Positions 13,084 to 22,194 of a stretch of DNA of 64,000 nucleotides are shown one piece after another. Position 1 is the stretch's first letter, and every line of letters begins with the position of its first letter. The notes below the pieces were generated by a model. That model saw only the letters and a list, made by a program, of their open reading frames with translations, was not told the DNA's origin and ran no database searches. Position numbers and translations under genes: made by a program. The DNA comes from Methanolobus vulcani (GTDB taxonomy: Archaea; Halobacteriota; Methanosarcinia; Methanosarcinales; Methanosarcinaceae), in contig NZ_FNCA01000001.1 in the NCBI RefSeq assembly GCF_900100715.1, forward strand, positions 248,001 through 312,000, read 5' to 3'.

Positions 13084-13476
13084 ATGTTTGATATAATCGC
13101 AGTGGATATTTCCGGGAGACACAAAGTAAATAATGAATATCTCATGGTATGTGCGGCAGTTGCTGTTTCTGTCACTGCAGATCACATAGAGAAAGTCAAC
13201 CAGATGGCTCTGAGATCTTTCAGGAGTAGATCCGCCCCTGATATCCAATCAGTTGTGAAGATGGTTGAGACCACTGTTTCTGAACTGAAGTCCGATGGTG
13301 TCATTGTCACAGAAGCAGGTGATTTCTACAATAAACCCCAATGGTTAATTGATAGTATGTTCACACGGGATTTCAAATATCAGGAATCGATCAGTGAAAG
13401 GCGATGCATTGAGATTGCTCACCACGCATCTCTTAGTTCACGAAAGCTTCTTTTAAAAGAACTGGACATCCAGTGA
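13084..13476 (+). CDS. Conserved archaeal protein, DUF2209-like
   Basis: The 130-residue protein begins MFDIIAVDISGRH and contains EYLMVCAAVAVSV and a C-terminal RRCIEIAHHASLSSRKLL. The opening is reminiscent of RNase-H-fold proteins (hydrophobic strand ending in Asp), but that is inference. It resembles archaeal hypothetical proteins grouped as DUF2209, function unknown. A TATA-like element, CTTAAATAATATA (13051-13063), sits about 25 bases before the ATG, predicting a leaderless transcript. The next gene, hflX, starts 22 bases downstream and is probably co-transcribed. Confidence 0.6.
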   Translation: MFDIIAVDISGRHKVNNEYLMVCAAVAVSVTADHIEKVNQMALRSFRSRSAPDIQSVVKMVETTVSELKSDGVIVTEAGDFYNKPQWLIDSMFTRDFKYQESISERRCIEIAHHASLSSRKLLLKELDIQ

Positions 13477-13498: not shown

Positions 13499-14749
13499 AT
13501 GATGCGTGCTATTTTAGTTAAACGGAATGACCCCAGGTCTGAAGATGAAAAAAATGAGCTTCAGATGAATGAGCTTCGCGAACTTGCCGGAGCCGCAGGC
13601 TATGAAATAATTTTTGAAATGATGCAGACACGTCATCCTGACCGTAAATATCATCTTGGAAGGGGAAAGGTTGAGGAACTGGCACAGGTTGTAGTAGACC
13701 TGAGACCCGATAAGATAATATTCCACAACCCTCTCAGCACCATGCAGATATATAATATTTCAGAAACATGCCGTTGTGAAACCATTGACAAATTTCAGCT
13801 TATCCTTGAGATATTCGCAACCAGAGCCACTACCCACCGTTCTAAATTACAAGTAGAACTTGCAAGACTGGAATATGAACTTCCTCGTGCCAGAGCAGTG
13901 ATATCTATCCTTAAAAAGGATGAAAGACCTGGTTTTATGGGACTTGGTGGTTATGAGGACTCATATGCACAGGATATCAAGAACCGTATGACACGTATCA
14001 GAAATGAGCTTGAAACTATACAGAAGGATAATGAGTCCTTGCGGACACACCGCCATTCAAAAGGCTTCTCACTTGCAGCCCTTGCAGGTTACACTAATGC
14101 AGGAAAAAGCACTCTTTTCAATGCACTCGTGGATGAAAATGTCGAGTCAAAGGACATGTTGTTCACCACACTGTTGCCTACCACAAGATCACTTAAAGTA
14201 GAGGGTCGTGACATTCTTATCACGGATACTGTAGGATTTATAGAAGACCTTCCACACTGGATGGTTGATGCTTTCAGGTCAACACTTGATGAGATATTCC
14301 TTGCAGATGTTGTTCTTCTTGTAGTGGATTCATCGGAGCCTTTCGAGACTGTACGCAAAAAACTTCTTGTATGTCATGAGACAATGTGGGATCAGTTGCA
14401 GGATGTTGCCATTGTGACTGTTTTTAACAAGATAGACCTAATCACAGATGATGAACTGCAGGAAAAGTTCACAGGTCTTGCGTATCTTGCACCTAACTCT
14501 GTTGCTGTATCTGCAAAAACCGGTTTTGGATTTGAACAACTCAAATCCGAGATTAGAAACATTCTTCCTGAATGGAAAAGGATAGAACTTATAATACCAC
14601 TATCAGAAGAAGGTATGTCACTTGTAGCATGGATATATGATGAGGGGCTTGTTCACGATATCAATTACACTGATGTAATTTCAATTGATTTTGAAGCAAG
14701 GGATAAAGTTATAAATAAAGCCATATCTTTAGTGAATGGACTATCATAA
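13499..14749 (+). CDS. hflX: HflX-type ribosome-associated GTPase
   Basis: The 416-residue protein has the HflX N-terminal domain (MMQTRHPDRKYHLGRGK, with HNPLSTMQ for the Asn-Pro-Leu-Ser motif), a helical linker (QVELARLEYELPR, GFMGLGGYE) and a GTPase domain with P-loop AGYTNAGKST, switch II DTVGFIEDLPHW and NKIDL. HflX binds the large ribosomal subunit and splits stalled ribosomes. Start codons at 13499 and 13502 are adjacent ATGs and cannot be separated by sequence alone. The following intergenic region contains the candidate small RNA. Confidence 0.92.
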   Translation: MMRAILVKRNDPRSEDEKNELQMNELRELAGAAGYEIIFEMMQTRHPDRKYHLGRGKVEELAQVVVDLRPDKIIFHNPLSTMQIYNISETCRCETIDKFQLILEIFATRATTHRSKLQVELARLEYELPRARAVISILKKDERPGFMGLGGYEDSYAQDIKNRMTRIRNELETIQKDNESLRTHRHSKGFSLAALAGYTNAGKSTLFNALVDENVESKDMLFTTLLPTTRSLKVEGRDILITDTVGFIEDLPHWMVDAFRSTLDEIFLADVVLLVVDSSEPFETVRKKLLVCHETMWDQLQDVAIVTVFNKIDLITDDELQEKFTGLAYLAPNSVAVSAKTGFGFEQLKSEIRNILPEWKRIELIIPLSEEGMSLVAWIYDEGLVHDINYTDVISIDFEARDKVINKAISLVNGLS

Positions 14750-14793: not shown

Positions 14794-14803
14794 TTATATA
14801 TAT
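14794..14803 (+). promoter_or_regulatory. TATA box of the candidate small RNA
   Basis: TTATATATAT precedes TATGCTATC. Archaeal transcription normally starts about 25 bases beyond the centre of such a box, which places the start at about 14822-14829, exactly at the first base of the 10-bp stem. Confidence 0.6.
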
Positions 14804-14825
14804 ATGCTATCAGGTAGTTAGTACA

Positions 14826-14910
14826 TATGCGAACGGGAAAACACTCTAATGTACCACCAATCCTATCCAACCACCCAACCACCAAAATTCTATCCCCGTT
14901 CGCAGTTTTT
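14826..14910 (+). ncRNA. Candidate small RNA with C-rich loop
   Basis: A perfect 10-bp inverted repeat, TGCGAACGGG (14828-14837) and CCCGTTCGCA (14895-14904), closes a 57-base loop and is followed by a run of Ts (14906-14910). A strong TATA box sits about 25-30 bases upstream. The loop is unstructured by eye and carries repeated CC/CCACC blocks (about 14851-14883), as expected of an RNA that pairs with GGTGG-type targets. There is no sensible open reading frame. The size (about 80-85 nt), promoter, stem and T-run together make an independent transcript likely. I do not recognise it as a described family; targets are unknown. Confidence 0.6.
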
Positions 14911-14997
14911 CTATTAATCACACATTGTTTGATTCGACCTTCGTTTTAAACGTTGAATCTAAATATCTTTATTAACCTTTACGACCAAGTTGCTTAC

Positions 14998-15669
14998 ATG
15001 AAGTTCGATCTTCACGTTCATTCCTGTTATTCCAAAGACAGCAACGCCAGTCTGGATGATATTCTTGAATCTGCTGCTGAAAATGGGCTAGATGGGTTTG
15101 CAATATGTGATCACGACCGCATAGAAGGCGGTTTTGTCTGTGCAAAAAGAGCAGAAGAGCTCGGCTCAAAACTGATTGTCATTCCAGGTGTTGAAGTTAG
15201 TTCCTCAAAAGGCCACATACTTGCTCTTGGGATCACTGAGCCGATTGAACCTGGACTCAGTCCAGAAGAGACCATCAAAAAGGCACGTCAGCAGGGAGCA
15301 GTAGTTATAATACCACACCCCTTTAAACTGACATCCCATGGAATAGGTTATATTGAGGGTCTGGATGCAGATGCAATCGAAGTCCTTAATTCAAGGTGTG
15401 TGACCGATGGCCCCAATAATAAAGCCCGAGAAGCCGCAGAAGAACTTGGATTTCCTATGGTTGGCGGAAGTGATTCACATGAAGCGGAAATGGTTGGCAG
15501 GTCATATACTGAAATTGATACTAACGCCACAACCGCTGAAGAAGTGCTGGATGCTATCAGGACAGGAAAGACAAGTCCTGGAGGCGGAAAAACACCGATG
15601 TCATTTGTGGTAAAACAAATGTTCATAGGGCATATGAATAAACTCACAAGACGTCTTGGAATGAGATAA
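14998..15669 (+). CDS. PHP-domain metal-dependent phosphoesterase
   Basis: Starting at the ATG at 14998 the protein is 223 residues and opens MKFDLHVHSCYSKDS, the classic first PHP metal motif (HxH). CDHDRIEGG, PGVEVSSSKGH, IPHPFK and GGSDSHEAEM follow as the other metal-binding motifs, all present. PHP proteins of this size hydrolyse phosphoesters (nucleotide or RNA-type substrates; some act on 3',5'-bisphosphates). The upstream in-frame TTG at 14953 would add 15 unconserved residues and is unlikely. No Shine-Dalgarno site is evident, so the transcript is probably leaderless or nearly so. Confidence 0.82.
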   Translation: MKFDLHVHSCYSKDSNASLDDILESAAENGLDGFAICDHDRIEGGFVCAKRAEELGSKLIVIPGVEVSSSKGHILALGITEPIEPGLSPEETIKKARQQGAVVIIPHPFKLTSHGIGYIEGLDADAIEVLNSRCVTDGPNNKAREAAEELGFPMVGGSDSHEAEMVGRSYTEIDTNATTAEEVLDAIRTGKTSPGGGKTPMSFVVKQMFIGHMNKLTRRLGMR

Positions 15670-21803: not shown

Positions 21804-22194
21804 TATTGAGAGAGGAAGGACGGCCGCCGGGTCATTTGACCTGAGGAAAGTCTCCCCACCTTCTAAACACACGAATGCCTGTAAAGGGCATCGGGCGAGA
21901 GCCCGGGCAGTTGCTTTGCAACTCATGTGCTCTGCACATGCTGGCACAGAAACGATACCGTACCATGTCAATGCAATGATGCTGAAAAAGCTGAGGTCTC
22001 ATGGAATGCGGATGGAACGGCGAATCCTCGTGGGTGCAAGTCAGTAGTAGGGGGCAATGGTTGTTTAGACCATTCCCGAAGTTTATGTACGCGTAGCCGA
22101 ATGCCGTCAATGCAGCTCTTATGAGCACATCATCCTGCCGGTCGGGATGAATGTATTGCATTAACAGAAGGGAGCTTACTCTCCTCACTCAACA
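21804..22194 (+). ncRNA. rnpB: RNase P RNA, archaeal type A
   Basis: The conserved core elements are visible in order: GAGGAAAGTC (21843-21852, CR-I and 5' strand of P4), ACAGAAAC (21946-21953), TGGGTGCAAG (22031-22040, CR-IV region) and ACAGAAGGGAGCTTAC near 22164-22179 (CR-V and 3' strand of P4; AAGTCTCC pairs with GGAGCTT around the usual bulge). The ends pair as P1: TTGAG-GAGGA (21806-21816) with TCCTC-CTCAA (22182-22192). This RNA matures the 5' ends of tRNAs with its protein subunits. It is convergent with the geranylgeranyl reductase gene, whose stop lies about 12 bases on. The length, about 390 nt, suits Methanosarcinales. Confidence 0.9.

Follow-up and report, generated by a model that had tools for sequence, protein, structure and literature searches.

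The interval between the hflX gene and a PHP-domain gene of Methanolobus vulcani contains a TATA box followed by an inverted repeat that encloses a C-rich stretch, which raises the question of whether this locus encodes an RNA of its own and what such an RNA would do. The locus lies in the window analysed here, which is the whole stretch of 64,000 nucleotides from contig NZ_FNCA01000001.1 (positions 248,001 to 312,000). Our analysis indicates that the element is very probably a real and conserved RNA gene. With about even probability, judged from sequence, it encodes an autonomous pairing-type sRNA of about 80 nt that was originally redox-controlled. It belongs to an sRNA family of the Methanosarcinaceae that is not represented in Rfam, and the traits of this family are a fixed promoter layout, a near-invariant terminal stem of 9-10 bp, synteny, a second copy in Methanolobus and, in most copies, an open loop, poor in G, that measures about 54-75 nt.

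The stem, the loop and their conservation

A scan of the whole 64 kb for perfect 10-bp stems that have six or more GC pairs and enclose 30-90 nt returned the hflX-PHP element (Table 1) and no other, and ten shuffled windows scanned with the same settings contained one such stem in total (mean 0.1). Folding predicted one stem of 10 bp that closes a fully unpaired loop of 57 nt (-15.8 kcal/mol, z -4.3), the same fold that the first-pass annotation had described from the letters, and none of 200 shuffles of the element was equally stable. Loops of the A copies (copy A being the one in the window) consist of 36% C and 3% G. The strong TATA box with the expected spacing, which had also been described, was found at the proper distance from the stem. 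The T run had been said to follow the stem directly: the run is present, but one G separates it from the 3' arm, and the post-stem sequence, including the run as a possible terminator, is not conserved in relatives. The RNA of the minus strand also folds well, but no conserved promoter-like sequence was found upstream of it, and it was rejected.

Table 1 Features of the hflX-PHP interval, in window coordinates
Feature	Position	Strand	Basis or remark
hflX GTPase gene, upstream neighbour	13499..14749	+	PF13167, PF16360, PF01926, PF19275
TATA box of the sRNA, TTATATATATATG	14794..14806	+	zero indels to the stem in the Methanolobus alignment
Promoter box GTAGTTAGTA (consensus GTNGTTNGTA)	14814..14823	+	between TATA and expected transcript start
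Near-palindrome GTTAGTA-N4-TGCGAAC	14817..14834	+	covers most of the 5' stem arm
Predicted sRNA, about 80 nt	14828..14910	+	ends predicted from the T run and the distance to the TATA box
5' stem arm TGCGAACGGG	14828..14837	+	fold; consensus GCGAACGGG nearly invariant in 83 copies
Open loop, 57 nt, C-rich, G-poor	14838..14894	+	fold
Loop core ATGTACCACCAATCCTATCCAACCACCCAACCA	14849..14881	+	near-invariant across Methanolobus, mostly retained in genus g25
3' stem arm CCCGTTCGCA	14895..14904	+	fold; consensus CCCGTTCGC
T run TTTTT, possible terminator in the window copy	14906..14910	+	sequence; not conserved
PHP-domain gene, downstream neighbour	14998..15669	+	PF02811, PF13263

Judged by hflX, the nearest named relatives belong to Methanolobus. 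A 146-bp stretch of the locus was matched in all 26 other Methanolobus genomes, so the element is present in all 27, and at the loci that were fetched with hflX it is located between hflX and the PHP gene. Three conserved blocks were observed in the Methanolobus alignment, namely the TATA box together with GTNGTTNGTA, the arms GCGAACGGG/CCCGTTCGC and the loop core ATGTACCACCAATCCTATCCAACCACCCAACCA, the last of which persists at the nucleotide level across indels that shift any reading frame. A search of the window against Rfam 15 at the gathering score returned only the archaeal RNase P RNA, at 21808-22190, and nothing at the sRNA locus, which agrees with the first-pass annotation, where no described family of this form was named. 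A DUF2209 gene (13084-13476) is located directly 5' of hflX, and a similar gene is found there in a Methanococcoides-type genome.

Variation of the stem was followed in 50 distinct arm pairs from 83 copies, and standard pairs fill 444 of 450 cells. Exchanges affect mostly the outermost pair (G-C, G-U, A-U), and one G-U is found at the inner end. Covariation support for the stem is weak, at about one compensatory pair and little more, since the sequence of the stem hardly changes. A possible reason for this constancy is that the 5' arm would also serve as half of a DNA operator. The first-pass annotation had staked the RNA on conservation of both stem covariation and loop in relatives: stem and loop core are indeed kept across Methanolobus, whereas covariation is minimal.

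Promoter layout, related copies and the redox box

The promoter box GTAGTTAGTA, which was absent from the first-pass annotation, is about as conserved as the stem, and its spacing to the stem is fixed at 4 nt in copy A, in a second Methanolobus copy (copy B) and in the Methanosarcina copies. The near-palindrome that runs from this box into the 5' arm is a possible DNA operator (O2), for which the comparator is O1, GTTCGYA-N4-TRCGAA, present in copy B and in other genera. A regulon defined by the O2 palindrome was rejected, since its matches in the M. vulcani genome were not above those of the reversed control.

The bare stem pattern was found at two places in most Methanolobus genomes, and the reversed control pattern at none. 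With looser matching, copy B was detected in 27 of 27 Methanolobus genomes, carrying the same promoter box and stem and a different loop that is also G-poor (AGTACCTCTCCA...CACCATACCTGTGCATTCAACCCC). In M. vulcani, it is flanked by the gene of an FtsX/MacB-type permease and that of a pyrophosphatase-family protein. A family-wide search found the exact stem in four genera, and the loop core of copy A again in genus g25. At the hflX-PHP place, one Methanococcoides-type genome carries the element with a third loop, and related copies also occupy this interval in ANME-3-type relatives. A class-wide promoter search returned one copy in most Methanosarcina-type genomes, and at the loci examined these copies adjoin hflX and/or the PHP gene (hflX in Methanosarcina sp. 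KYL-1, L054) and contain the loop TGTCTACTGAAGACATCAGACCCTCCTAATATCCTAAACTACCCCTACACC. Outside the family, the promoter pattern gave a few single-mismatch matches, in one related family and without a stem match.

Close pairs of sRNA copies were observed in two Methanococcoides-type genomes (L222, G076:C1:594895-595206; G074:C2:937695-938002), and in the L222 pair each copy has its own promoter and box. A link to viruses was considered and rejected, as the 30 bare-stem matches in IMG/VR were GC-rich DNA without a TATA box or C-rich loop and were judged to be chance.

In each of the 27 Methanolobus genomes, copy B has GTTCGYA-N4-TRCGAA or a close variant directly 5' of its TATA box, and so do the Methanosarcina and Methanococcoides-type copies. 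The pattern of box, TATA and GTNGTTNGT, searched with a permitted spacing of 18-26 bases, was found in 48 of 112 genomes and never more than once in any of them, and the element from the box to GTNGTTNGT measured 43 bp in all 48 matches. The box equals TTCGTAN4TACGAA, the published binding sequence of MsvR, and is placed over the BRE/TATA as in the msvR promoter; in the autoregulated promoters of MsvR, this sequence lies just 5' of the TATA box and covers the BRE, and M. acetivorans MsvR binds this sequence only when reduced (PMC3729527). There it controls protein genes, whereas here it precedes an sRNA. We infer that the ancestral sRNA may have been controlled by the regulator of this box, of the MsvR type that binds when reduced, and the sRNA would then rise under oxidation.

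At the BRE/TATA of Methanolobus copy A, no TTCGTAN4TACGAA (TTCGN7-9CGAA) box was found, and this copy retains GTNGTTNGTA-N4-TGCGAAC; without the upstream box, its expression may differ from that of copy B. A profile search of the M. vulcani genome for an HTH-V4R MsvR protein gave no hit, although a diverged one could be missed by such a search. The two V4R proteins that were found, one ACT-V4R and one V4R only, have no recognised DNA-binding domain and were rejected as MsvR-like.

The trigger is known for few archaeal sRNAs. The sRNA predicted here is old within the Methanosarcinaceae and has a fixed address in tractable Methanosarcina species, and the box present in most of its forms matches that of a characterised redox regulator, which makes trigger, regulator and targets directly testable. 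If true, redox control would offer a lead on the post-transcriptional oxygen response of strict anaerobes.

Two further boxes were noticed in these searches. An MsvR-type box, GTTCGTATCGATACGAA, is located just 5' of the TATA box of an IscA/HesB-type Fe-S_biosyn gene in many Methanolobus genomes (L211, L218 at G000:C5:53796, and orthologs). Three Methanolobus genomes (L164, L165, L166) have a box-like palindrome, GTTCGTANNNNTGCGAACC, close to a small gene and to the gene of a DtxR-like regulator; this GTTCGTA...TGCGAAC sequence is without the stem and loop and was set aside as unrelated.

Possible partners of the loop

For a pairing-type sRNA, transcription would start at or just before the stem, so that the stem joins the 5' and 3' ends and keeps the loop open. 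Short C-rich segments of the loop (GTACCACC and CCAACCACC in copy A, CCCTCCT in Methanosarcina) would pair with G/U-rich RNA sites, and this pairing would block or alter the translation or stability of other RNAs. Pairing with GGTGG-type sites, possibly ribosome sites of mRNAs, had been proposed in the first-pass annotation, and for ribosome sites it is a conjecture. Long antisense targets were rejected: two 20-nt windows of the loop core, searched through 27 genomes with three mismatches allowed at most, had no recurring complementary site besides the gene itself.

The lack of a long complementary target in the 27 genomes would also suit a real RNA whose C-rich loop, kept single-stranded and open by the stem, serves as a platform on which an RNA-binding protein is stored or titrated, and does not pair with RNA. 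About 33 nt of the loop are near-invariant in the genus, which exceeds the need of a short seed, and the stem sequence is frozen as though it were recognised. However, copies A and B of the same cell have strongly different loops, as do the copies of different genera; a single protein site would tolerate such differences poorly, and no known C-rich-binding partner was identified. We consider such a platform unlikely.

A candidate partner for the loop came from tracing the MsvR-type box, through which an ORF-free locus was found (G000:C15:213630-217250; L238:2630-6256). The locus occupies the same place in other Methanosarcinaceae, with a length of about 1-4 kb, and adjoins a conserved 149-aa gene without a Pfam match. 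In M. vulcani, it contains three diverged repeat units and many hairpins, and the 3 kb tested had no Rfam match; it has the appearance of a long noncoding RNA or of a noncoding RNA cluster. The box region of genome G019 was left out of the set of such loci as a CRISPR-type repeat array, and the box loci of G009 and G020 (L251, L252) are situated in other contexts. The G019 array (L254, G019:C133) has about 27 copies of a unit that includes TTTCAATCCCTCTAAGGTCTGATTTTAAC and is likely CRISPR.

The most enriched multi-genome 8-mer of the ORF-free locus, in 13 genomes of one Methanolobus subclade, is GGTGGTAC, the exact complement of the loop-core segment GTACCACC. It occurs there in 19 copies in 11 of the 13 genomes, against 0.19 expected, and hairpins with GCCTGATA/TATCAGGC-type stems hold several of the sites. 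In this subclade, the sRNA might therefore pair with the loops of the long noncoding RNA, which would act as its target, sponge or partner. Besides the enrichment, the best duplex energies were better than those of target shuffles in three genomes, several sites are located in the apical parts of hairpins, and the promoter of the locus bears the same box as the sRNA. On the other hand, shuffled loops performed nearly equally in the duplex test, the predicted accessibility of the sites was low, and the copies and genomes counted are not independent of each other. The other Methanolobus subclade also lacks the partner, and other genera nearly lack it, yet the loop core is retained in that other subclade and in genus g25. 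We regard this pairing as distinctly unlikely, and the GGTGGTAC-rich noncoding locus as a clade-limited candidate partner that serves as a lead only.

More doubtful still is a redox-controlled sRNA system spanning the whole family, in which the promoter and stem would form a constant cassette, the loop would be exchanged between copies and genera as a pairing module, and the sRNA would be partnered in one Methanolobus subclade with a hairpin-rich long noncoding RNA that displays the loop complement.

That no RNA is made, and that the inverted repeat acts as DNA between two genes, either as an operator or as a structural element, is very unlikely. The 5' arm does overlap a near-palindrome similar to the upstream box, and the stem sequence is near-invariant, but the TATA box stands at a fixed distance, few stretches are as conserved as the loop core, the arms remain matched despite changes in loop length, and copy B repeats this layout around a different loop. 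A leaderless small protein gene or a 5' leader of the PHP gene is barely credible: many copies have an ATG that overlaps the start of the stem, and the PHP gene follows about 90 nt downstream, but the triplet at the stem start varies (ATG, TTG, GTG or ACG), as does the frame offset from the stem start to the loop core (13/7/5), so that no small protein is conserved, and a separate TATA-like sequence precedes the PHP gene near 14968-14975, just 5' of its ATG. The autonomous RNA proposed in the first-pass annotation is well supported by its own TATA box at a constant distance, by this TATA-like sequence of the PHP gene, by synteny throughout Methanolobus and in other genera and by the lack of a conserved frame.

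Comparison with described archaeal sRNAs

Within the preferred reading of a pairing-type sRNA, the closest descriptions come from M. mazei. According to a review (PMC5867862), the intergenic sRNA41 masks ribosome binding sites. The C-rich loop of the Methanosarcina ortholog of our sRNA holds CCCTCCT, the complement of the Shine-Dalgarno core, whereas the loop of Methanolobus copy A is without CCTCC. From this motif, and compared by description alone, the Methanosarcina ortholog could be M. mazei sRNA41; the ortholog may already be among the listed M. mazei sRNAs. Loop-based pairing with a ribosome binding site is also shared with M. mazei sRNA154 (PMC5867862), which differs in having two stem loops and in its association with nitrogen limitation; this comparison was again by description.

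Like sRNA162 and sRNA171 (PMC3510493), the element would be a Methanosarcinaceae sRNA whose single-stranded region pairs with mRNAs. Identity with the sRNA162 family was rejected, because M. mazei sRNA162 is 191 nt long, forms three stem loops and lies between MM2441 and MM2442 (PMC3510493), as opposed to one stem at the hflX-PHP place. In M. psychrophilus R15, 195 intergenic sRNAs were mapped, of which nine conserved, cold-induced ones share an upstream 'cold box' (PMC5378194); these sRNAs come from the genus Methanolobus, as do copies A and B.
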